A model generated the notes under the pieces. That model saw only the letters and a list, made by a program, of their open reading frames with translations, did not search any database and had not been told where the DNA came from. A program made the translations under genes and the position numbers. A stretch of DNA of 37,222 nucleotides, from IMG/VR virus record IMGVR_UViG_3300042691_030506, positions 1 through 37,222 of that record, one strand, 5' to 3'. Positions 3,984 through 37,222 of this stretch are shown in pieces. The stretch comes from a virus. How positions within the stretch are numbered: the first letter of the stretch is position 1; every line of letters starts with the position of its first letter.

Positions 3984-4862
3984 TTATCCCCAAACTGTTT
4001 CGATAGTTCCTTGCAGAGCTTGACCTGCAAAAGAGACGTTTGCGGTTCCAATAAGGCTCAAGAACGCACTGTTTTCTATTCTAGGCATAGCAAAGCTGCG
4101 GTCTGTCAGGTAGCAAGTTTCGCAGGGTGCAGCAGCAGACCTGAACGAAAACGACGCAAGAGGCTTTACCAGAACAAGAGTGATCAGCCCCACGTCTGAG
4201 CCACTTGTAAACTGTACCGACTCGATACTTCTCACGCCCGAGTCACCGGACTGTAACGCCATGAAAGGGACTGCGGTTGATGCCAGCCCGCCCGTGGCTG
4301 GGGCGTTACTTGTCGATATGGTTCCGGTAAAGAAGCTTGCATTCGTCAGAGTATGTGGCGGAGTTTGACGTCCCGGCACGCCGTCTTGATTGGTGTAGGT
4401 CACGACGAAAGGGATGTTACCAACAGAATGTTGCGCAACGGTGACAGGCATAATCTTAACGCCGTTGCCGTCAGTGTATCTCGTCAAAGAAACGTCGTTT
4501 ACCATTACCTGCGCGTCGTTCGTATCCTCTGCAATGAACGGGTAGTACATAAGAATGTCGCAGAGGATGAAATACCCAACACCGCCCGCAAAAGATGACG
4601 CGATAAACGAAAAGTCTTTCAAATATTTCTTGGCAGGTGCCGGAGCGTTTCCGTGGCGTATCCCACCTCTTGAGGAATCAACAGTCGCAGCTACGAGAGG
4701 CTCGCTCGCGTAATAAAACGGTGACGGGTTACCGGGCGAAATGGTCGTGTCAACCCAGACCCCTCCTGTTGTCGCAGGAACTGGAACTTTTCTAAATGTA
4801 AATACCGTCTCTTTGCCAAGCTCTTTGTAATCGACGATATCTTTGACACTACCAATCGTCAT
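3984..4862 (-). CDS. Virion structural protein, smaller member of a tandem paralogue pair
   Basis: A 292-residue beta-rich protein beginning at ATG 4860-4862, two bases after the upstream stop, with a weak GGA ribosome site that suggests coupling. It shares its whole-length plan with the following gene: an N-terminal W-V-D...GNPSPFYY...HGN segment, a FAGGVGYFILCDILMYYPF strand block, then Q-S-G-D-S-G-V-R-S-I-E-S-V and a terminal AMPRI...ETVWG. It lacks the inserted TLPAGLATATDYF-type module of the larger paralogue. The two arose by duplication (observed similarity); an accessory head or appendage role is inferred from location among structural genes. Confidence 0.5.
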   Translation of the reverse strand: MTIGSVKDIVDYKELGKETVFTFRKVPVPATTGGVWVDTTISPGNPSPFYYASEPLVAATVDSSRGGIRHGNAPAPAKKYLKDFSFIASSFAGGVGYFILCDILMYYPFIAEDTNDAQVMVNDVSLTRYTDGNGVKIMPVTVAQHSVGNIPFVVTYTNQDGVPGRQTPPHTLTNASFFTGTISTSNAPATGGLASTAVPFMALQSGDSGVRSIESVQFTSGSDVGLITLVLVKPLASFSFRSAAAPCETCYLTDRSFAMPRIENSAFLSLIGTANVSFAGQALQGTIETVWG

Positions 4863-5875: not shown

Positions 5876-5910
5876 AAAAAGACAGGGCGAGGCCTCGAAA
5901 GACCCCGCCC
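5876..5910 (-). terminator. Intrinsic terminator after coat/decoration genes
   Basis: Read on the minus strand, bases 5910-5885 form an 11-pair stem (GGGCGGGGTCT against AGGCCTCGCCC, two G-U pairs) closed by a TTCG loop, followed by TGTCTTTTT. It lies just after the stop of the 132-residue decoration-like gene (5919) and before the GTG at 5864. It probably lowers transcription of the downstream genes relative to coat protein. Confidence 0.75.
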
Positions 5911-5918
5911 ACGGTTTG

Positions 5919-6317
5919 TTAGGCTGCCATGTACTGGACAACAACTTCGATCTTGCCTGCGGTCAAAGCTGCAGTTCCGATTGTCATCAGAACTTTGCTT
6001 CCGCTTGCCAAACGGGTAGGCAAGTCAGCAAGTGCGTTCGGCTTCAAGACTGCGTTGGCGGTCAAGTTGGCGACTGCACCCTCCGTCGTGTTGACGAACA
6101 GGTCGGTCGTTCCGGTGATACCGAGAGCAACCGTCGCAGATCCGCCAGACGTACAAGTTGTCTTGACGTAAGCGTGGAAGTGGGTCAACACGACGTCGCC
6201 GTCAGCTTCGAAGAGCTCAACCGTTCCGACTGCTCCGCCGTCGACTGCAAATTCCCACGTCTTGCGGACGAGGGTTTCTGCGACCATGAATTCAGGTCCG
6301 ATTTTCTTTGCTGGCAT
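5919..6317 (-). CDS. Putative capsid decoration / head structural protein
   Basis: A 132-residue, beta-rich protein: G-T-V-E-L-F-E-A-D-G-D-V-V-L-T-H-F-H-A-Y-V-K, then T-C-T-S-G-G-S-A-T-V-A-L-G-I, then K-I-E-V-V-V-Q-Y. It follows the major capsid gene with one small gene between, the position of many head decoration or minor head proteins. The ATG at 6315-6317 has an AAAGGAAG ribosome site; the gene starts inside the end of the upstream gene (26-base overlap). The following hairpin terminator suggests that it and the coat protein are made in larger amounts than later proteins. The decoration role is inferred. Confidence 0.5.
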   Translation of the reverse strand: MPAKKIGPEFMVAETLVRKTWEFAVDGGAVGTVELFEADGDVVLTHFHAYVKTTCTSGGSATVALGITGTTDLFVNTTEGAVANLTANAVLKPNALADLPTRLASGSKVLMTIGTAALTAGKIEVVVQYMAA

Positions 6318-6519
6318 TTTTATCTTCCTTTGATTTCTTTTGTTTTGTGGGCGGCAGATGACCCGTTATGTAAGCGACCTGCCGCGTTCCGTATGAAGTC
6401 ATAGCAACGATTTTGAAAGGGGTCATGATCGAGCGCAGAACTCTTGTCAACTCCTCAGGAGACTCGGCGACAATCGCCTTGATCTCCTGATATGGGTTGA
6501 GACTTGTGAACTCGATCAT
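6292..6519 (-). CDS. 75-residue protein downstream of coat gene, unknown
   Basis: It starts at ATG 6517-6519 with a GAGGGG ribosome site, 15 bases after the coat gene stop. The N-terminal two-thirds look like a compact alpha/beta fold (L-N-P-Y-Q-E-I-K-A-I-V, E-E-L-T-R-V-L-R-S-I, K-I-V-A-M-T-S-Y). The last 20 residues are a Lys/Glu-rich tail, encoded where the gene overlaps the next ribosome site and start. Function is not recognised. Conserved order among head genes suggests an assembly or structural role. Confidence 0.55.
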   Translation of the reverse strand: MIEFTSLNPYQEIKAIVAESPEELTRVLRSIMTPFKIVAMTSYGTRQVAYITGHLPPTKQKKSKEDKNASKENRT

Positions 6520-6534
6520 AACCGCCCCTCAAAA

Positions 6535-7404
6535 TTACGAACCAGAAGCTGCAGCGACGACGCTGATGTGCTTCTTGGAGCCTTCGATTCCAAGCTTGGC
6601 ACCGAAGACCATATCGACGGACATCACCATGCCGAACTTCTTCGACGAGTGCATGTCCGAAATTTTCACTTGCACTTCCGGCTGGCTGACCATGTGGAGG
6701 TAGCTGGGGTGGAAGATGAGTGCTTTATCTGTTGCGCGGCTGTTGTCTTCAAGGGTGTTGAAGCCGAAGCGACGCAGCGCGATTTGGCCGCCGATAACTG
6801 GGGCATCTTGCGCGCCGAAGTCCGAACTCACAAGGGTTTGTGCGTTCAGGAGATCGGAGTAGTAGCTGGGGTCGACGATACAGTACCACTGGCCGTCGTT
6901 TGGCCACTTGGCTTGAGCGGCGAGAAGACGCACTGCAGCGAGTTGCGCTGCGTTGAAGTCCGTCACGCTGTTGATGACATGGTCAGGGGCAGACGTCGAC
7001 GGTGCGGTCAAGCTGTACAGGTAGTCGTTGATCTGCTTAGCCATTGCGTAGCGGAGGGACTCCATCACTTCAGGATTTTCCATAGCGATTTGGCTCTGCA
7101 GGGACACGAGGTCTTCGAACTCGTAGGCAGCGACGGCGCGCTTATCTGCTTTGATGTCCACAAAGTTTGTGCTGACGGCTTCAGTGTCGAAGCTGTCTGC
7201 GTCGGTTCCGACGGTCAACAGTTGACCTGTAGGGGCGTTCACCTGAGAAACGCGGACGGTGTCGCCGCCTTTGGTGATTGCGCCTTCGTAACGCTTGTCC
7301 ACGAGGCCGCCGAGGAGGAGGCTTTCACGGAGTTGCTTGGTGAACAGGGGCGACCAATATTTTTGGATTTGATCTGCGACTTCTGCGAGTTTCGTAACTG
7401 ACAT
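6535..7404 (-). CDS. Major capsid (coat) protein
   Basis: A 289-residue protein beginning at ATG 7402-7404 with an AAGAAGGATG ribosome site that overlaps the scaffold stop. The sequence has the look of coat proteins with an HK97-type fold: an N-terminal arm and helix (Q-K-Y-W-S-P-L-F-T-K-Q-L-R-E-S), an early V-R-V-S-Q-V strand, a spine-type helix region around M-E-S-L-R-Y-A-M-A-K-Q-I-N-D-Y-L-Y, and a long central domain with W-Y-C-I-V-D-P-S-Y-Y-S-D-L-L. It stands immediately after a coiled-coil scaffold gene and in the terminase-portal-scaffold-coat order. It has no long N-terminal delta domain, consistent with a separate scaffold. Confidence 0.8.
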   Translation of the reverse strand: MSVTKLAEVADQIQKYWSPLFTKQLRESLLLGGLVDKRYEGAITKGGDTVRVSQVNAPTGQLLTVGTDADSFDTEAVSTNFVDIKADKRAVAAYEFEDLVSLQSQIAMENPEVMESLRYAMAKQINDYLYSLTAPSTSAPDHVINSVTDFNAAQLAAVRLLAAQAKWPNDGQWYCIVDPSYYSDLLNAQTLVSSDFGAQDAPVIGGQIALRRFGFNTLEDNSRATDKALIFHPSYLHMVSQPEVQVKISDMHSSKKFGMVMSVDMVFGAKLGIEGSKKHISVVAAASGS

Positions 7405-13483: not shown

Positions 13484-13669
13484 TTATTCAGCCCGGGCGG
13501 CTAGAAACTTTTGCGACTTGCCACGGAAGATGAGAAGTGTGGCAGCCGGCAAAACGATCGTCCGGAACTTACTTTTGATCACGACTTGGCCTTTGGCGTT
13601 CTCGACAACTTCGACCGGAAACAGGACCGTTTTCCAGAAGACCATACCGGGTGCTTTAAAGCGAATCAT
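13484..13669 (-). CDS. 61-residue unknown protein of the export cassette
   Basis: The start is placed at ATG 13667-13669, 4 bases after the lipoprotein gene stop with CGGAG upstream; the longer frame up to 13891 merely runs antiphase through that gene. The product is basic with alternating hydrophobic strands (V-F-W-K-T-V-L-F-P-V-E-V-V-E, then V-V-I-K-S-K-F-R-T-I-V-L-P), suggesting a small beta barrel, and has no signal peptide. It forms the last gene of a run with the protease and collagen-like lipoprotein. No function is recognised. Confidence 0.55.
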   Translation of the reverse strand: MIRFKAPGMVFWKTVLFPVEVVENAKGQVVIKSKFRTIVLPAATLLIFRGKSQKFLAARAE

Positions 13670-13673
13670 CAGT

Positions 13674-13955
13674 TTATTCTCCGTAGAGTTTTGTGAGGCA
13701 TTCTGAGACGACGTTGCGGACGTAGCGGCACAGGTCTTTATCGACCGCTTTGCCGACTTTCGGGTCAACGCAGACTGCCCACGTTTCAACTGCAGCCCCC
13801 GCACCGACGCACATGGCAGGTCCGGGTTCACCGGGCTCGCCCGGTTGTCCGGGAGGCCCCGGCTCGCCCGGTTTCCCGTCGGTGCCGTCACTGCCGTCTT
13901 GGCCGCAAGCGGTGACGAAGGCCATAAGCATCAAAGCGACAAGAAAACGTCTCAT
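13674..13955 (-). CDS. Collagen-like lipoprotein with C-terminal four-cysteine module
   Basis: A 93-residue predicted outer-envelope lipoprotein. The start is ATG 13953-13955, within an ATGA overlap with the protease stop and with a near-ideal GGAGGTGATC ribosome site. The N-terminus (M-R-R-F-L-V-A-L-M-L-M-A-F-V-T-A-C-G) is a type II signal peptide with lipobox V-T-A-C. Ten Gly-X-Y triplets rich in GEP/GPP/GQP follow, able to form a short collagen-like triple helix. The C-terminal 50 residues hold cysteines spaced C-x12-C-x13-C-x9-C in likely helices, nearly the spacing of the protease tail. It may be a trimeric stalk on the host envelope; role unknown. Confidence 0.8.
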   Translation of the reverse strand: MRRFLVALMLMAFVTACGQDGSDGTDGKPGEPGPPGQPGEPGEPGPAMCVGAGAAVETWAVCVDPKVGKAVDKDLCRYVRNVVSECLTKLYGE

Positions 13956-14908
13956 TTGATCACCTCCGCATAGCAAGCGTCCAAGGCGGCCAAGGCTTTG
14001 CCGCAAAGCTCTGCAGCACCCTTACCGTTAATACATTCACGGATCGTTTTCAGGTTCTCTGCGTTAGCTTTACACGCCTCAGGCAGTTCTGGCGGCGGAG
14101 GCGGAGCGTCCGCGCCGCAATCAAGTGAGACGCCACAAAGCTTGACGTTGTTGTTCGTCTCATATGCCTTGGCAAACGAGATAAACTCAGGATGATTGGT
14201 GCGGTTGAAGTAAGAACATCCCCCACCGCCTCTGGAGTTGACGCCCACGACTTTGAACTTGGCCGTTTTCTTCCGGTCATCCGACCAACGCAGGAGGGAT
14301 CCGCCCGAGTCGCCGCCGCCCAAGTTCGACGGGCCGCAGGTGACGATGTCTTGACCCGAAACGTTGCGGACGACGCCTGAACCCCAGTAATGCGTCCGGA
14401 CGTTAGGCGCGCCGAGGCCGTTCATCAGGAGTTTCTCATTCGCCGCCACCCCAAGAGCAATATCAAACGAGGCCATCTGCGAACCCGCCGGCGCGGGCGC
14501 GGCCAGTTTACAAAAAGCGTAGTCGTTGTACACGGTGCGGGTGTTATATGCCGGGTGCCGCGTACAAACCGCCGAGATCTGTTGACCACTACCCCTATGG
14601 GAAAACGTGATGCGGCTACCTGTGGAGACGCAGTGCGAAGCCGTAAAGAGGACTTGGGGGCCGACAAGCGTGCCCGTACAGTTACCGATCCAGCCCATCG
14701 GCTCAAACTCGTCCGCGTTTGAACGCGTGCCGTTATAGACCATCGTGTCGGCGTGGACGCCGAGATCACGCAGGAGGTAGATCGGCTCGCCCGTAATCTC
14801 GTCCCAATCGGTTGGGCGGGGTTTGCCGTCTTGGCTGTCTTTGGCGATCAAACTGTAGGAGTCGAGTGCAAAAAGAAGGACCGCGATCAAGGCTAAAAAT
14901 CTTGGCAT
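13952..14908 (-). CDS. Secreted chymotrypsin-fold serine protease with cysteine-rich tail
   Basis: The start is placed at ATG 14906-14908 (AAAGAGG upstream), where a signal peptide begins (R-F-L-A-L-I-A-V-L-L-F-A-L), giving 318 residues; the longer frame to 15070 overlaps the facing peptidase gene. The family S1-like catalytic triad is visible: H92 in F-T-A-S-H-C-V, D129 in N-D-Y-A-F-C-K-L, S201 in G-G-G-D-S-G-G-S. After the protease domain come C-x5-C, a PPPPP linker and a helical tail with C-x12-C-x9-C-x9-C. Paired cysteines imply folding outside the cytoplasm. S1 proteases are rare in phage genomes; this may be a virion-independent host-envelope factor. Substrate unknown. Confidence 0.88.
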   Translation of the reverse strand: MPRFLALIAVLLFALDSYSLIAKDSQDGKPRPTDWDEITGEPIYLLRDLGVHADTMVYNGTRSNADEFEPMGWIGNCTGTLVGPQVLFTASHCVSTGSRITFSHRGSGQQISAVCTRHPAYNTRTVYNDYAFCKLAAPAPAGSQMASFDIALGVAANEKLLMNGLGAPNVRTHYWGSGVVRNVSGQDIVTCGPSNLGGGDSGGSLLRWSDDRKKTAKFKVVGVNSRGGGGCSYFNRTNHPEFISFAKAYETNNNVKLCGVSLDCGADAPPPPPELPEACKANAENLKTIRECINGKGAAELCGKALAALDACYAEVIK

Positions 14909-14980: not shown

Positions 14981-15391
14981 ATGAAAGTATTCGTAACCGA
15001 GAACGAGTATCTGAAGGGACGTGACAAAACTTGGCCCCTGACGCCTCAGCAGCGTATCAATATGAGACACCTGCTTGAAATCCTGAACAAAGTCCGGGCC
15101 GTTTTGGACGTCCCCTTTATCGTGACATCCGGTTACAGGCCTGAGGGGATCAACAAAGAGATCGGCGGCGCAGTCGGATCACTTCATATAAGCTGCGAGG
15201 CCGTAGACCTTGCCGACGCAGACGGCCGGATCAAGAAGTGGTTTGCCGACGAGGGACGTCTTGAAAAGTATGGGCTGTGGATGGAATCCCCGATCTACAC
15301 GCCCAAGCACTGTCACCTGCAGACCAAGGCCCCGCGTTCTGGCGCGCGGATCTTTGTCCCTCACCGGAAACCTTGGCTGACTGGAGTCTAG
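14981..15391 (+). CDS. Peptidase M15-like D,L/D,D-peptidase, probable endolysin
   Basis: The start is placed at ATG 14981 with AAAGGG upstream, giving 136 residues; an in-frame ATG at 14936 lacks a ribosome site. Motifs match the M15 zinc peptidase family: S-G-Y-R-P (50-54), S-L-H-I-S-C-E-A-V-D (H69 and D76 as zinc ligands) and H-C-H-L (H110/H112). Such enzymes cut peptidoglycan cross-links and serve as phage endolysins. No signal peptide, so it would need a holin. It is the only rightward gene in this leftward block, diverging from the protease gene (72-bp gap) and converging on the resolvase gene with overlapping stops. A virion-associated role is possible. Confidence 0.8.
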   Translation: MKVFVTENEYLKGRDKTWPLTPQQRINMRHLLEILNKVRAVLDVPFIVTSGYRPEGINKEIGGAVGSLHISCEAVDLADADGRIKKWFADEGRLEKYGLWMESPIYTPKHCHLQTKAPRSGARIFVPHRKPWLTGV

Positions 15392-18169: not shown

Positions 18170-20161
18170 ATGAAATTTTTGTTTTTGGATTTTGAATTCA
18201 CAGGCGTCTCTGAACCTGATTTGAAACTTGTCTCGTGCGCGTGGGCGTTGGGTGAAGGCGGAAAGATTGTACAGAAAGGGACTGTGTGGTTACACGGTCA
18301 AGGCGATCAAATTTACGAAAACAAACAGGCATTAATTAACAAGATTTATGGCTGTTTGGAGCTAGGATACATTCTTGTTTCCTACGTTTTGGAAGCAGAG
18401 ATGCGCGCGATTTTGACGTTGGAACCTTATTTGGAACATGGGTCGGACTATAAATTTTTAAAAGAAGGCCCTTTAAAATTAAACGCGTTTCGCAAGTCCA
18501 TAGACATTTATCTTGAATACCGAAACATTCTCAACAGCAATCACTTCCTGAGTTATGGCGAGCAGTATATAGGCGGCGAAGTCATCAAGACAACCCCTCC
18601 GCCAAATAAATGGGAAGTGGTGGCCAGTGAGGGTGAGGACACACAACACCACAAACCAGAATATTCCCTTGCTGCGGCGTGTTTTAAACTCCTTGGCGTC
18701 AAAATTGACACTGAGGAAAAGGACAGAATCCGAGGGATCATCATCCGAGGAGACGCCGAAGAAATAGAACACCACAAAGATGAAATTCTTAAATATAACG
18801 AGTCGGACATTACCCACCTATACGATCTTCTCAAGACGATCTCCAGACACTATGAGTTGTGTGGGAAAAGGCGGACTTGGTTTAATGATGCTTTAAATCG
18901 CGGTAATTTTTCCATAGACACGGCCCACATGGTCCGACGTGGTTACCCCGTAAACGTCGGCGAAATTAAAAAGTTTGCCGCCGCGTCAAAGGAGATCATG
19001 GCCGACGCGGCCAAGGCGGTTAACGATTCTGGCGTCTGGGCTTTTCGCGCCGATGGGTCGATGGACCAGAAAGCTGTCAAAGAGTGGGTTGAAAAGTTTG
19101 TCGCGGAAAAGGGGATTAAGACTTGGCGGCGGACGCCCAAAGGCGAACTTTCAATATCTAAGGATGCTTTTGGGGACTTTAAAAAAGCAGTCGATGAAAC
19201 TTCTTTCGGTGTGGCTTTCAGAGAGTATTTGAGTACAAAGCAATCCCTAAATGGATTTCTCCCTCCGCGTGAGGGGTCAAAACGCAAAAAGACTTTTTGG
19301 GACTTTCTCGGATCAGACGGGAGAGTTCGCCCCCACTTTGGAATTTACGGATCCCAGACGTCGCGGAGTCAACCCGCAGCGACGGGGTTTATGTTTCTCA
19401 AAGCCAAGTGGATGCGTTACTTTGTCCACCCTCCTCCGGGGAGTTTCCTTATCGAAGTGGACTACTCGTCCCAAGAGTTTTTGATTGCGGCCATTATTTC
19501 TCAGGATAAGAAAATGATGGATGCTTATGAGTCTGGAGACGTTTACCTTGCGTTTGCGAAGGACGCTGGTCTAGTTCCGAGAGACGGCGAACGAAAGGAT
19601 TACGAAGATCAGAGAAAACTTTGTAAAGGTATCGTCCTCGGGGTCTCTTATGACATGTCCGCCAAAGGTCTCGCCCCAAGAATTGGTAAGACTGAAGAAG
19701 AGGCACAATCTCTGATTAACAAGTTCTATGAAGCTTATCCCGACTACGCGGCGTGGAAGAAAAAAACAATCGAAGAATACCAAACGGCGGGCCATCTTGA
19801 ATTGTCGGATGGTTGGATGTTGGGTCCACACAATGACAATATGAGAAGCGTTGGTAATTTCCCGATCCAAGGTCACGGGGCCGTTATCATGAGGCAGGCC
19901 GTAAGGAACCTTTTGCAGGCGAAAATATGCGTTATCTTCACTGTTCACGATTCTATTGTCTGTGAGACAGGTAAAAGAAACCCAGAAAAGTGTGTTGAAG
20001 ATATAAAATTTCTTATGAACCTTGCTTTCGCGCAAGTTATGTCCGCGTTTGGCGAGACTCGTAAAGTTCGGATGGATGCTAAAGTTTGGGGTGGAGACAG
20101 AAGATACGTCGCCGAAGGGGCTGAAAAACAACTTGCCCGATACAAAAAATATTTCTCTTAA
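18170..20161 (+). CDS. Family A DNA polymerase with 3'-5' exonuclease domain
   Basis: A 663-residue replicative polymerase. The exonuclease domain shows F-L-D-F-E-F (D7, E9) and a later E-S-D-I-T-H-L-Y-D-L motif near residues 219-228. Polymerase motif A is V-D-Y-S-S-Q-E (D431, E436). Motif B is R482-x3-K486-x7-Y494. Motif C is V-H-D-S (592-595), with Ser in place of the usual Glu, as occurs in some phage enzymes. There is no 5'-3' nuclease domain. ATG 18170 has a GGCGGT site. It works with the neighbouring helicase and SSB-like protein. Confidence 0.92.
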   Translation: MKFLFLDFEFTGVSEPDLKLVSCAWALGEGGKIVQKGTVWLHGQGDQIYENKQALINKIYGCLELGYILVSYVLEAEMRAILTLEPYLEHGSDYKFLKEGPLKLNAFRKSIDIYLEYRNILNSNHFLSYGEQYIGGEVIKTTPPPNKWEVVASEGEDTQHHKPEYSLAAACFKLLGVKIDTEEKDRIRGIIIRGDAEEIEHHKDEILKYNESDITHLYDLLKTISRHYELCGKRRTWFNDALNRGNFSIDTAHMVRRGYPVNVGEIKKFAAASKEIMADAAKAVNDSGVWAFRADGSMDQKAVKEWVEKFVAEKGIKTWRRTPKGELSISKDAFGDFKKAVDETSFGVAFREYLSTKQSLNGFLPPREGSKRKKTFWDFLGSDGRVRPHFGIYGSQTSRSQPAATGFMFLKAKWMRYFVHPPPGSFLIEVDYSSQEFLIAAIISQDKKMMDAYESGDVYLAFAKDAGLVPRDGERKDYEDQRKLCKGIVLGVSYDMSAKGLAPRIGKTEEEAQSLINKFYEAYPDYAAWKKKTIEEYQTAGHLELSDGWMLGPHNDNMRSVGNFPIQGHGAVIMRQAVRNLLQAKICVIFTVHDSIVCETGKRNPEKCVEDIKFLMNLAFAQVMSAFGETRKVRMDAKVWGGDRRYVAEGAEKQLARYKKYFS

Positions 20162-23978: not shown

Positions 23979-24133
23979 TGGCTTACGAAATTTTCTTGGT
24001 CGCAGGGTTTTCGTCAATCTTCGCCGTCGCGGCGTTTGTCTTTGGCGTCGCAGTTGGGTCTACTTTTGCGACCAGTGCGTTGTCTCAAGACAGTAAGCGT
24101 AAGCGTTCAGAAATTTTCCAAGACAAAATCTGA
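23978..24133 (+). CDS. 51-residue single-span membrane protein
   Basis: Read directly: ATG 23978 (TGATG overlap with the preceding stop) to TGA 24131-24133. A hydrophobic span covers residues 5-31 (I-F-L-V-A-G-F-S-S-I-F-A-V-A-A-F-V-F-G-V-A-V-G), then a short K/R-rich tail. Its last 27 bases overlap the end of the convergent leftward gene. Coupling supports translation. It could be a small holin-like or inhibitory membrane peptide; no family is recognised. Confidence 0.5.
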   Translation: MAYEIFLVAGFSSIFAVAAFVFGVAVGSTFATSALSQDSKRKRSEIFQDKI

Positions 24134-24388
24134 CTGGGCGTATTCAAGTTTTCGGATGATCTTGTGCCCAAGCTTCACGCCATACTCCCATTCGTAGGCA
24201 TGAAAAATTTCGTGCCAGAGTGTGGCAAGTCTTTCGCGCGGGCTTTGACCAAGGCGGATATGGATCTCCGCTTCCTCAAAGTAGCACATGCCGAGATATA
24301 TCGGGTTGCCTTCAATCACACGTCGAAACTTGACGACCCAAGTCCTACCGCCGATGACAAGTTCCTTTGGAAAGTCTTTCATCTTCAT
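24107..24388 (-). CDS. HExxH zinc metallopeptidase-like protein
   Basis: The start is placed at ATG 24386-24388, overlapping the phosphoesterase stop as ATGA, giving 93 residues; the longer frame to 24442 would overlap that gene by 58 bases. The sequence L-W-H-E-I-F-H-A-Y-E carries the zinc signature H59-E60-x-x-H63 on a helix, preceded by beta strands (T-W-V-V-K-F-R-R-V, I-Y-L-G-M-C-Y-F, E-I-H-I-R). Phage proteins of this SprT/ImmA-like size are common; substrate unknown. The third zinc ligand is not evident. Confidence 0.65.
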   Translation of the reverse strand: MKMKDFPKELVIGGRTWVVKFRRVIEGNPIYLGMCYFEEAEIHIRLGQSPRERLATLWHEIFHAYEWEYGVKLGHKIIRKLEYAQSDFVLENF

Positions 24389-25047
24389 AACGGTATAAAC
24401 CTCGGGCCAAAGTCGTCTATCCATCCAAGACCGTGCGTCCACGTCGCGAACGTCCGCTGTTTGGCGTAGGACATGTTGGGCGTCAGAGGGTTTGCAAGGT
24501 GTCCTGCGTTAAGCTCCCATAGTGTCTTTTTCCCACGTCTGAAGTAGTGAACCCCGCCACGGTGGGAGTGGCCGCAGACAGTTGAAATGCCGTTGTGCAT
24601 CGCATGATCGCCAAGCTTCGAACGCCAGCCGTGCATGAAACAAATCCCGCCGTAGAACCACTCATCCTCGAAAACAGTTTCAACACCTTCGAAGCGGAAA
24701 TACTCGTGAAGGCCGACGATGGATTCCATCTCAGGTGCGGTTTCGATGATGCGTTTATGTGGCCGGACGTCGTGATTGCCGAGAAGCATCACGATGCGCG
24801 CACGCGGACAAGCGCGCCGCAACATGTCAAATATTTCCTCAAGAGCGCGCGTCCCCTGCTTCAACTCTTCCAAGGGTGTGATTACGTTATGTGAACGCGG
24901 AAATTTTGCGAAAGAGTATAAGTCGCGAGCGTCTCCGACTTGTACGATGACTTCCGGTTTGAGAAAGCGGAGAGTGTCGACAGCGCGTCTCATTGTCCGC
25001 CAATGGACCCACGGCGCGTGGATGTCTCCCAATACACCGATACGCAT
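24385..25047 (-). CDS. Calcineurin-like metallophosphoesterase
   Basis: A 220-residue protein carrying the full family motif set: G-D-I-H (D8, H10), V-G-D-A-R-D (D39), G-N-H-D (91-93), M-H-G (H139) and G-H-S-H (H160, H162), which bind two metals and cleave phosphoester bonds. Candidate substrates are nucleotides or DNA ends; nothing in the sequence decides. ATG 25045-25047 has a GAGGAA ribosome site. With the HExxH gene it forms a leftward two-gene island inside the rightward region, so it needs its own promoter in the 109-bp divergent gap, where no clear leftward promoter is visible. Confidence 0.88.
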   Translation of the reverse strand: MRIGVLGDIHAPWVHWRTMRRAVDTLRFLKPEVIVQVGDARDLYSFAKFPRSHNVITPLEELKQGTRALEEIFDMLRRACPRARIVMLLGNHDVRPHKRIIETAPEMESIVGLHEYFRFEGVETVFEDEWFYGGICFMHGWRSKLGDHAMHNGISTVCGHSHRGGVHYFRRGKKTLWELNAGHLANPLTPNMSYAKQRTFATWTHGLGWIDDFGPRFIPL

Positions 25048-25393: not shown

Positions 25394-25577
25394 CATGCCG
25401 TTTGCTGATCTGGTCGACGTTGGAATTGTTGAAGACTATCTGGCTTGGATGGCGGCGCATGTTGAAGGCAAATATAACGTCGATATTTCGGAACTAACTG
25501 AATTCATACTGGAGACAATCCATGGGCGCGCTGGCCATTATTTCATTGATCGTGTCAATCGTCAGGGCGATCCCTGA
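25347..25577 (+). CDS. 76-residue unknown soluble protein
   Basis: The start is placed at ATG 25347 (AAAGGG and GAGG upstream); the frame to 25287 is antiphase with the previous gene. It overlaps the previous gene by 47 bases and the next by 56. The product is acidic with helices (D-D-M-P-F-A-D-L-V-D-V-G-I-V-E-D-Y-L-A-W-M and I-S-E-L-T-E-F-I-L-E-T-I). No membrane span. Long overlaps on both sides weaken the call but its residue composition looks protein-like. Confidence 0.45.
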   Translation: MSTEYVTLKKGRAIDDMPFADLVDVGIVEDYLAWMAAHVEGKYNVDISELTEFILETIHGRAGHYFIDRVNRQGDP

Positions 25578-25767
25578 TTTTATCGCACTCGTCAATTTTA
25601 TCCTCGGCCTCATCAAAAAGGGTGACCACACCAAAGTGCGTGAGCGTCGGCAGAAGCTTTACGAGATGCTGAAGGAAGCGCGCGCGTCTCACGACTACTC
25701 GAAGCTTGGAACCAAACTAGAGTTGATGAAGCGTGAACTTGAAAAGGAAATGGCTGGACAAGATTAA
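25522..25767 (+). CDS. Small membrane protein, holin candidate
   Basis: An 81-residue protein from ATG 25522 with GGAG 7 bases before it. The N-terminal 32 residues are strongly hydrophobic (A-L-A-I-I-S-L-I-V-S-I-V-R-A-I-P, then F-I-A-L-V-N-F-I-L-G-L-I), enough for one long or two short spans, followed by a charged helical tail (residues 33-80). Last gene before the terminator at 25790. A holin role would serve the M15 peptidase, which lacks an export signal, but that gene is 10 kb away. Function unproven. Confidence 0.55.
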   Translation: MGALAIISLIVSIVRAIPDFIALVNFILGLIKKGDHTKVRERRQKLYEMLKEARASHDYSKLGTKLELMKRELEKEMAGQD

Positions 25768-25823: not shown

Positions 25824-26086
25824 GCCATGATTCCCTTGATCAGGGCAGATATTGCAACAGTCATCTTGCTGACCAGTGCCTGAATCTCTTCCACGGACAA
25901 GTCTTTAATCTCGGCCGAGATCATGTGCGTGCCTTCGATCGCAGCTTTGCCAGCCGAGAGAACAGGCGCGAATTTGGGGAGGTCCATCCAGTTGACTTTC
26001 CCATCTTCTTTTGCCTTCTCAAGGGCGAGGCCGACTTCCTCGATCAGGGCGAGCATCTCAAGCGTTTCCTTAATACCTTGTGCCAT
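25817..26086 (-). CDS. 89-residue helical phage protein
   Basis: It starts at ATG 26084-26086 with AAAGGA upstream and overlaps the lipoprotein gene by 17 bases. It is almost wholly helical: I-K-E-T-L-E-M-L-A-L-I-E-E-V-G-L-A-L-E-K, then D-L-P-K-F-A-P-V-L-S-A-G-K-A-A-I-E-G, then L-S-V-E-E-I-Q-A-L-V-S-K-M. Proteins with this K-E-T-L-E and W-x-D-L-P-K plan occur in other tailed phages without an assigned role. It is the last gene of the tail-lipoprotein run; its stop lies in the shared terminator. Confidence 0.6.
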   Translation of the reverse strand: MAQGIKETLEMLALIEEVGLALEKAKEDGKVNWMDLPKFAPVLSAGKAAIEGTHMISAEIKDLSVEEIQALVSKMTVAISALIKGIMAK

Positions 26087-27035
26087 GACTGAATCCTTTC
26101 AAAAATGTGGTTGGCGTGTATGCTTCGACTATAGCATGCATCAAATCGATTCCGGGCGTCTCCAGCCCAGTCTTGCCGTCTGGTTTCTCCCAGTCGCCGC
26201 AGCGTTGATGGCGATATTCCCAAGTGTTGTATGAGAACGCCTCAATCCACGGGCGAATGTCTTTCCGGCCACAGTAATGATCGATGAGTGGGACGTCGTT
26301 GCCGGCTGCTTGTTCGCACCAGATGGCGCGTTGGCGTGGGCTGATGCCAACACCTGTGTCGTCAAGGATACGCAGCGACTGGTATCCGAGATGAAGGCGG
26401 AAACAAGACGGTTTGGAAAACCGCACCGCCGCAGCCCATGCAGTCATCTTGGCGGCAAAAGAATCTGTGGAGCTCGGGCGCGAGCCTTCGCCAAGGCTGT
26501 AGAGAAGTGCGGATAAAAGTATTTCGAAACCGTTTTCGAGGCGGACTTCGGACGCCTTGTTCAGCTTTGAGTCGTTCAAGGCGAGGAAGTTGCGGTGGCT
26601 CAAGACCCACTCGCGCCATAGGTCTTTGGCCCAAGTGCAGCGGTGAACTTGGGAGGAGATGCCGCGGTAAAGGCCGATCGCACCGTCGAGGCTGATCTTG
26701 TCCGGCAAAGTCGGGTGGCGGTAGATCTCACCCATCGACTGCCAGAGGGTTTGCTGCAGCGACAGGGTCAAGGCTTCAGCCTCAGGGTCACACGGCAGGG
26801 ATGCGAGAAGGATTCCGGTCCAAATAAGGGAATCGCCCGTGTGTTCGATGCGGCCGTTGTCATAAACGGAAACTACCCAAGGGTCTGGGTCGAGGAAGTT
26901 GTTCAGGCGTGTTCTGGCTTCAGAGTGTTTGGCTGACAAGAACTCGTCAGGTGTAAGCCTGTCCGGCTTCTCCTGCGGCGAACCACAAGAGAAGACCAGA
27001 CAAGCAGTTAAAATTGTAACGAGACGAGTCAACAT
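26070..27035 (-). CDS. Phage-encoded lipoprotein next to tail fibre
   Basis: A 321-residue protein with a clear type II signal peptide: L-T-R-L-V-T-I-L-T-A-C-L-V-F-S-C-G, lipobox V-F-S-C (C17). The mature part is mainly helical and has seven more cysteines, suiting an oxidising periplasm. A G-D-S-L-I-W-T-G-I-L-L-A-S-L segment and repeated helices suggest an alpha/alpha-toroid-like fold, but no catalytic residues are identified. It starts at ATG 27033-27035 (AAAGGTGG), 13 bases after the fibre gene stop. A receptor-blocking lipoprotein, as T5 Llp beside its receptor-binding gene, is one hypothesis. Confidence 0.7.
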   Translation of the reverse strand: MLTRLVTILTACLVFSCGSPQEKPDRLTPDEFLSAKHSEARTRLNNFLDPDPWVVSVYDNGRIEHTGDSLIWTGILLASLPCDPEAEALTLSLQQTLWQSMGEIYRHPTLPDKISLDGAIGLYRGISSQVHRCTWAKDLWREWVLSHRNFLALNDSKLNKASEVRLENGFEILLSALLYSLGEGSRPSSTDSFAAKMTAWAAAVRFSKPSCFRLHLGYQSLRILDDTGVGISPRQRAIWCEQAAGNDVPLIDHYCGRKDIRPWIEAFSYNTWEYRHQRCGDWEKPDGKTGLETPGIDLMHAIVEAYTPTTFLKGFSHGTRY

Positions 27036-36335: not shown

Positions 36336-37222
36336 TTAGAGCGTACCGATGTAGAACTCACCTTGTCCAGAGGAGTTCACAAAGCAGCGCAGGCCGATGT
36401 TTGCCACCGCGACGCCGTCTTCGTCGGAGACGGAGAAGGACGTTACAGAACACGTCGGCGAGTAAGCGTAAGCAACCTTGCCAGCGACCCAGTTGCCACC
36501 AGATTTTTGACCTGCGGTAACTTGGAACTTGGTGTCGGTGCTTTCGCGGAAACGACGCCACACGTCTGCATCGTACTTCTGAAGACGCGCCGTAATTGTT
36601 ATTTCAATCGTGCGTGCCGTGATGAGCGACCCAGAGCGGCCGGATTCAGCGCACAAGCTACCCAAAACCACACGTTCGTTGGTGCCGGAGATCGAAACAG
36701 ATGACGCCTCAAAGCAGACGTAGTCAACGGCGTCGCCAAGCATGGCTTCCATATACTTACCGACTGTCGGGTCAGCCGCGTCGTAGGAAGGTGTGTATGG
36801 GAAAGCATAGTTTTGGGCATTGTCTGCAGTGTATGTCAAAGACCCGGTGTCATCAGAAGACGTAACGTATCCGAGTTTCCCGCCGATCTTGTTGGCAGTG
36901 TTTGGACCGGTTGCGTGGTTAAGTTCCAAAGTCCCCGTGTCGACTTCAATTTGGAATTTACCCAAGGTGTCGCTGTAGAAAACGCTGAAAACTTGACCGG
37001 GATCGCCGACAGAGGTCATCGCTGTCTCAAGGGCGTCTGCCAACTCGTGGGGGTCGGAGTAGACTTTGACAGCCACAACTGCAGCTTTTGCGCCGCCGTC
37101 ATCGGTGAAGTCAAGATACCGCGTCGATGACGTGATTTCGATCGGGTTGAAATAGAATTTGATGCCTTCAAGGGTGTAGTTGACGTTGTTCAACTCACCG
37201 GCGTTGAAGTCCATCGTGAGTC
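36336..37222 (-). CDS. Major tail (tube) protein, C-terminal part
   Basis: The continuation of the gene that starts at 678; bases 37170-37222 repeat 53-1, so the unique part is 36336-37169. The whole product is 503 residues. After V-T-G-L-T-M-D-F-N-A-G-E-L-N-N-V-N-Y an inserted beta-rich domain (residues about 237-344: L-A-D-A-L-E-T, V-F-Y-S-D-T-L-G-K-F-Q-I, K-L-G-Y, L-T-Y-T-A-D-N-A) interrupts the tube fold, which resumes with F-P-Y-T-P-S-Y-D and ends with an Ig-like-looking stretch. The insertion may project from the tail surface. A terminator follows the stop. Confidence 0.75.
   Translation of the reverse strand, partial: LTMDFNAGELNNVNYTLEGIKFYFNPIEITSSTRYLDFTDDGGAKAAVVAVKVYSDPHELADALETAMTSVGDPGQVFSVFYSDTLGKFQIEVDTGTLELNHATGPNTANKIGGKLGYVTSSDDTGSLTYTADNAQNYAFPYTPSYDAADPTVGKYMEAMLGDAVDYVCFEASSVSISGTNERVVLGSLCAESGRSGSLITARTIEITITARLQKYDADVWRRFRESTDTKFQVTAGQKSGGNWVAGKVAYAYSPTCSVTSFSVSDEDGVAVANIGLRCFVNSSGQGEFYIGTL
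37170..37222 (+). repeat. Terminal 53-bp redundancy (copy 2)
   Basis: Same 53 bases as 1-53. Removing one copy leaves the tail gene frame intact, so the unique genome is about 37,169 bp. Confidence 0.9.

Follow-up and report, generated by a model that had tools for sequence, protein, structure and literature searches.

A secreted S1 protease coupled to a collagen-like lipoprotein in an uncultured phage: a possible envelope protease of the lysis module

Introduction

Lysis of Gram-negative bacteria by phages is usually pictured as the work of a holin, an endolysin and a spanin. What, then, would a phage do with a secreted serine protease that is encoded next to its endolysin and whose gene overlaps that of a small collagen-like lipoprotein? 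This arrangement is found in the phage record IMGVR_UViG_3300042691_030506, the whole 37,222 bp of which we call the window. The original prediction read the pair as a two-component envelope system whose members share a four-cysteine C-terminal module. We followed up this proposal by comparing the two genes, their tails and their neighbourhoods with those of related phages.

Results

The locus and its genome

The window is very probably a complete phage assembly of ~37.17 kb because it carries a 53-bp direct terminal repeat (1-53 and 37170-37222); a tail gene runs on across the record ends. Terminase, portal-position, major head, tape measure and tail genes lie on the minus strand, and replication genes lie on the plus strand. 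The protease and lipoprotein genes head the packaging/late operon, with the holin candidate not adjacent, and the M15 endolysin gene starts ~70 bp from the protease gene on the opposite strand (Table 1). Scans for Sigma-70-type promoters and terminators at the pair gave nothing above chance, and no family match was found for the 61-aa protein. A simple scan of the complete genome, of a kind that could miss one, saw no classical spanin.

Table 1. Features of the protease-lipoprotein locus and associated genes in the window
Feature	Coordinates	Strand	Basis or remarks
Secreted S1 (trypsin-fold) serine protease, 318 aa	13952..14908	-	Pfam, fold, triad; coding 14908-13955 plus stop
Protease signal peptide, residues ~1-22	14843..14908	-	Sequence, hydrophobic stretch; cleavage site not certain
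Protease linker, residues 265-278	14075..14116	-	Sequence; PPPPP at 269-273
Four-Cys helical protease tail, residues 279-318	13955..14074	-	C-x12-C-x9-C-x9-C
Collagen-like lipoprotein, 93 aa	13674..13955	-	Overlaps protease stop as ATGA; coding 13955-13677 plus stop
Lipoprotein signal peptide	13905..13955	-	Sequence; lipobox V-T-A-C17
Ten Gly-X-Y triplets, residues 18-47	13815..13904	-	Directly after lipobox Cys; eleven in sister phage L008
Four-Cys helical lipoprotein tail, residues 48-93	13677..13814	-	C-x12-C-x13-C-x9-C
61-aa protein	13484..13669	-	Directly 3' of lipoprotein gene; kept in L008; third gene of coupled group
M15-type endolysin	14981..15391	+	Divergent from protease; PHROG endolysin 6.8e-14
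81-aa membrane protein, holin candidate	25522..25767	+	Kept in L008 and L009; remote from the pair

The window PolA (18170-20161, +) has one strong match (32%, E 2e-51) among cultured phages, the Silvanigrella phage CP017838, which hints at a Bdellovibrionota host. This does not suffice to assign a host, as the open reading frames of CP017838 contain no S1 or S8 active-site motif. Scanning genome contigs with the protease alignment returned two weak, short matches only and no close host homologue. Elsewhere in the window, a 111-aa protein with an HExxH motif (24107-24442, -; WHEIFHAYEWEYG) adjoins a calcineurin-like phosphoesterase gene, and a similar pair occurs in phage L115.

The protease

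The upstream protein matches Pfam Trypsin (PF00089) with an E value of 2.3e-12 and 47.6 bits, against a curated cut-off of 20.6, and its predicted fold matched trypsins and kallikreins in Foldseek. Its triad residues, H92 (14633-14635), D129 (14522-14524) and S201 (14306-14308), align with those of six other phage proteases and are therefore conserved in all seven; the GDSGG motif is present. The original prediction of an S1 protease with a signal peptide and this triad is borne out by the Pfam match and the alignment, and the sequence marks the protein as a true exported S1 enzyme whose triad is complete. The signal peptide sequence diverges in the sister phage L008, and the protease of the related phage L087 has a classical AFA site.

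A proenzyme-type neo-N-terminus (VYNG in the window protease, LIGG in relatives) and an Asp preceding the active Ser suggest, from what is known of the family, that the protease is probably made as a proenzyme. Residue 189 is Asn or Ala, so the specificity would not be trypsin-like. C-terminal to the catalytic part, a Pro-rich or Asp/Pro-rich linker occurs at the equivalent place in the proteases of L008, L087, L114 and L115. The tail that follows PPPPP in the window protease (C279-x12-C292-x9-C302-x9-C312) is modelled by AlphaFold2 as two helices, 282-293 and 299-317, with pLDDT about 80. The protease has no significant PHROG match and no NCBIfam model, and there was no match to the PADLOC anti-phage defence models.

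The lipoprotein

The downstream protein scores just under the curated cut-off of Pfam Collagen (PF01391; E 1.3e-5, 25.3 bits against 27.2), and its L008 homologue scores above it. Its PHROG matches are collagen-like tail proteins, reached via the repeat only. Family knowledge suggests that the repeat would form a collagen trimer. Lipoproteins without Asp at +2 are generally sorted to the outer membrane. The lipobox and the residues after it read VTAC-G-Q in the window and ISGC-G-F in L008, with no Asp at +2, and from the Gly at this position the lipoprotein is predicted to reach the outer membrane. Its tail (C49-x12-C62-x13-C76-x9-C86) is again modelled as two helices, 52-63 and 73-91, at low pLDDT (55-66). 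The ten triplets, the ATGA overlap, the cysteine spacings of both tails and the PPPPP linker of the original prediction are all confirmed in the sequence, and AlphaFold2 agrees with its helical tails. A candidate relative of the lipoprotein, L099, was ruled out: it has no cysteines and adjoins a capsid gene.

Coupling and its conservation

At the ATGA overlap, the lipoprotein start has a near-perfect Shine-Dalgarno sequence (GGAGGTGATCAA-ATG; site GGAGGTGATC). The sister phage L008 (contig of 37,076 bp, PolA 92% identical to that of the window) has the same gene order, namely protease, lipoprotein, 61-aa gene, M15 endolysin and RuvC, and its protease and lipoprotein genes also overlap by 4 nt (GTGA). 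The proposal of a secreted enzyme coupled to a lipid-anchored neighbour thus holds in a second phage.

Between the window and L008, the catalytic part of the protease is 81% identical, with synonymous change saturated; identity is 39% in the linker and tail and 46% in the lipoprotein tail. Neither the eight tail cysteines nor the distances between them have changed. Cysteines kept amid such divergence would be the pattern expected of disulphide-clamped hairpins.

S1 proteases mostly lie near endolysins in related phages

Our survey covered 50 records, mostly terminase relatives and many of them partial. Four encode an S1 protease and one a subtilase; with 46 of the 50 lacking S1, this protease is not essential to the group. 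A later scan added L114 and L115, neither of which matched the TerL profile, to give seven S1 phages: the window, L008, L087, L088, G002, L114 and L115. The structural genes of G053 (L087) and G002 are colinear with those of the window.

These seven related or gene-sharing phages represent five gene arrangements, and in four of the five the protease lies at most 1.3 kb from an endolysin. It is beside M15 in the window and L008, directly after an SLT lysozyme in L115, and last in the order TM/coil protein, SLT lysozyme, S1 in G002. L087 and L088 have the order fibre, 319-aa lipoprotein, S1, 87 aa, TM/coil protein, 115 aa, TM protein and M15. In L114 the closest endolysin seen is 5.6 kb away. 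The chance of four in five arrangements falling this near an endolysin is of the order of 1e-4, assuming random placement in a ~40 kb genome and with the arrangements not fully independent. This neighbourhood supports the envelope role that had been proposed for the pair.

The collagen lipoprotein, in contrast, was detected in the window and L008 but in none of the other five S1 phages, and is confined to the window/L008 lineage. The pairing of protease and lipoprotein put forward originally therefore stands in the sister phage and finds no support as a general rule, and we regard the lipoprotein as a lineage-specific partner.

Are the two tails related?

The matching cysteine patterns had been taken to point to common descent or partnership. 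When only the protease tails of the window and L008 were compared with the lipoprotein tails, hhalign detected nothing (0.5%), and the residues between the fixed cysteines showed no likeness beyond shuffles (p 0.17-0.41). Profile searches of the PDB with the tails found nothing. This lack of similarity beyond the cysteines in the window and L008 favours an alternative in which the pairing is only apparent: a stand-alone protease would sit beside an unrelated lipoprotein, the cysteine patterns having converged because hairpins allow few spacings. The four-Cys protease tail also occurs in L115 without a collagen lipoprotein, which is likewise missing from all other S1 phages beyond the window and L008.

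L115 also supplies evidence against this alternative. It came from the later scan for protease relatives and was not selected for its tail, which reads C-x12-C-x11-C-x9-C and has a Trp where both lipoproteins have Trp. With this tail added, hhalign gave a full-length match over 44 columns with all four cysteines aligned (34%, pairwise E 4e-4). When the comparison was repeated under somewhat altered settings (score 18.3), one of 300 column shuffles with the cysteines fixed reached that score, and the L115 tail alone against the lipoprotein tails gave p about 0.013. The outer spacings, 12 and 9, agree exactly across five tails, three from proteases and two from lipoproteins, and the overlap and coupling are conserved. 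We therefore consider a merely apparent pairing very unlikely. The claim of shared ancestry, which gained nothing from two protease tails, draws moderate support from three; because the L115 comparison was a second test of one question, we rate common descent as reasonably probable and no higher.

In the protease tree, L115 groups with the window and L008 (support 0.80), in keeping with a single origin of the four-Cys protease tail. The protease tails of L087, L088 and L114 have a two-Cys version (C-x23-C or C-x30-C) after the Pro-rich linker, and the G002 protease has no tail.

Lipid-anchored hydrolases and other lipoproteins

The G002 S1 protease starts MRVLSYVFIISLISC behind an AAGGAG site and, because this N-terminus carries its own lipobox, is a predicted lipoprotein. 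Other anchored hydrolases occur among the terminase relatives. Predicted lipoproteins with HExxH motifs are encoded at L016:433-1002 (-), L076:7475-8023 (+) and L042:321-839 (+); those of L016 and L076 are homologous (34%) and metzincin-like by their HExxHxxGxxH motif, while scoring below all Pfam cut-offs. L006 encodes a subtilase with an N-terminal membrane segment (5910-7085, +; Pfam 2.8e-46); a gene located 1.4 kb upstream of it (4311-4550, +) specifies a predicted lipoprotein of 79 aa whose lipobox is followed by six Cys. Lipobox proteins with SLT-like (transglycosylase) sequence, at L046:1212-1934 (+) and L042:3568-4185 (+), are possible lipid-anchored endolysins. Given these examples in G002, L016, L076, L042, L006 and L046, a membrane-anchored envelope hydrolase appears to be a habit of this phage group, and the simplest reading of the window lipoprotein, a separate protein whose tail matches that of the protease, is that of a split anchor.

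Immediately behind its tail fibre gene, the window also encodes a 321-aa lipoprotein (26070-27035, -) whose conserved features include six Cys and the motif YRHQRC. Its family, which has no Pfam, PHROG, NCBIfam or PDB match, occurs in L008, L087, L088, L009, L115 and G031, mostly S1-bearing phages. We considered it as the true partner of the protease, as it adjoins S1 in L087 and L088, but rejected it as a specific partner because it is remote from the protease in the window and present in G031 without S1.

Lipid-anchored phage proteins can block superinfection. The occurrence of a second lipoprotein, beside the tail fibres and common to most S1-bearing phages, would fit a role for the protease in superinfection exclusion or host-surface shaving, in which the anchored enzyme destroys phage receptors or other envelope proteins independently of lysis. 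However, the pair is flanked by an endolysin gene and late genes rather than by early genes or an immunity region, and the window proteins looked at included no recognisable integrase or repressor. We judge this role unlikely.

Discussion

Taken together, these observations lead us to propose, as a tentative reading that we put at somewhat less than an even prospect, that the protease belongs to the lysis module as an envelope enzyme and is probably tethered to the outer membrane by the separately encoded lipoprotein. Both genes would form an exported proteolytic module of the phage exit programme. The protease, probably still a proenzyme, would be exported by means of its signal peptide; at its C-terminus, a Pro-rich linker would carry a helical hairpin clamped by disulphides. 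The product of the overlapping gene would be a lipoprotein of the outer membrane in which a short collagen stalk is joined to a hairpin of like build. Through contact between the two hairpins, this lipoprotein would most likely keep the protease at the membrane's inner face. There the protease would cut envelope proteins and weaken the envelope jointly with the adjacent endolysin. In G002, an S1 protease with its own lipid anchor apparently does the equivalent job.

We favour this lysis-module reading because the pair is coupled and conserved with its overlap, because the tails show similarity once L115 is included, and because endolysins are close in four of five arrangements and no classical spanin was seen. 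The lipobox of the G002 protease, the lipid-anchored HExxH proteins and the membrane-anchored subtilase of the relatives point the same way. Counted against it are the position of the pair at the head of the packaging/late operon, away from the holin candidate; the 46 of 50 records without S1; the distant endolysin of L114; and the four-Cys tail of L115 without a collagen lipoprotein. A further-reaching version seems rather doubtful: the protease would be a catalytic counterpart of the spanins, a periplasm-bridging or outer-membrane-tethered lysis enzyme that docks with the lipoprotein through hairpins of common ancestry, and related phages would employ S1, subtilase or lipid-anchored metallopeptidase versions, interchangeable and separately acquired, at this step.

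The wider interest lies in the occurrence of unrelated families of secreted or lipid-anchored proteases in one uncultured phage group, the S1 ones mostly beside endolysins. This suggests that breakage of envelope proteins is a possible further lysis step, or a replacement for spanins, in some hosts. As related phages carry such proteases beside a cell-wall-lysing enzyme, the protease is probably a so far unrecognised phage tool against the host envelope at exit. The window is the clearest and most testable example: its genome is complete, no spanin was recognised in it, and its protease and lipoprotein genes are coupled.

Comparison with known systems

The window protease shares with family S1 (PF00089) the triad, GDSGG, the trypsin fold and the proenzyme-type neo-N-terminus, and differs in its C-terminal Pro-rich linker and predicted disulphide hairpin and in its Asn/Ala at residue 189. 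The tails, each with two predicted helices bracketed by Cys pairs, resemble twin Cx9C (CHCH-type) disulphide hairpins; they differ in a first spacing of 12 rather than 9 and have no sequence match in the PDB.

The pair also invites comparison with spanins, and the strongest structural rival to the lysis-module reading is a spanin-like pair in which the protease N-terminus serves as inner-membrane anchor and its C-terminal hairpin meets the lipoprotein hairpin, bridging the periplasm; in a weaker form, the lipoprotein alone would be a divergent o-spanin. To our knowledge no catalytic i-spanin has been described. What makes this rival strong is that the published layout of two-component spanins (Rz/Rz1) matches, with a membrane or periplasmic protein upstream and an overlapping downstream gene for a small, here predicted, outer-membrane lipoprotein with periplasmic Cys near its C-terminus, the C-termini possibly meeting in the periplasm (PMC6139136); that Cys is nearly universal, being present in 507 of 528 two-component spanins, with up to four in o-spanins (PMC6139136); and that the complete genome showed no other spanin. 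However, an i-spanin has an uncleaved TM segment and a periplasmic coiled coil, whereas the upstream protein here is a trypsin-fold enzyme with no predicted coiled coil and a signal that is probably cleaved, and the signal peptides of the L087 and L088 proteases look cleavable; the collagen-like lipoprotein differs as well. In addition, L087/L088 and G002 encode a distinct TM/coil protein that weakly matches an Rz-like PHROG (E 0.0018 and 0.015). We hold a bridging pair to be improbable, noting that the missing coiled coil weakens the claim that the pair is a spanin and not the claim that it works like one.

Phage collagen-like proteins, such as tail fibres and prophage collagens, have the same Gly-X-Y repeats, but the window protein is short, lipid-anchored and no fibre; lipoproteins go unmentioned in a survey of the prophage collagens of E. 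coli (PMC3368898). Neither protein matched any of 50,697 phage records, nor did the protease match any of 72,556 plasmid records, and no account of a comparable pair was found in the openly accessible literature. S1 proteases, collagen repeats and phage lipoproteins are each of a known kind; what is new is their combination and its lysis setting.
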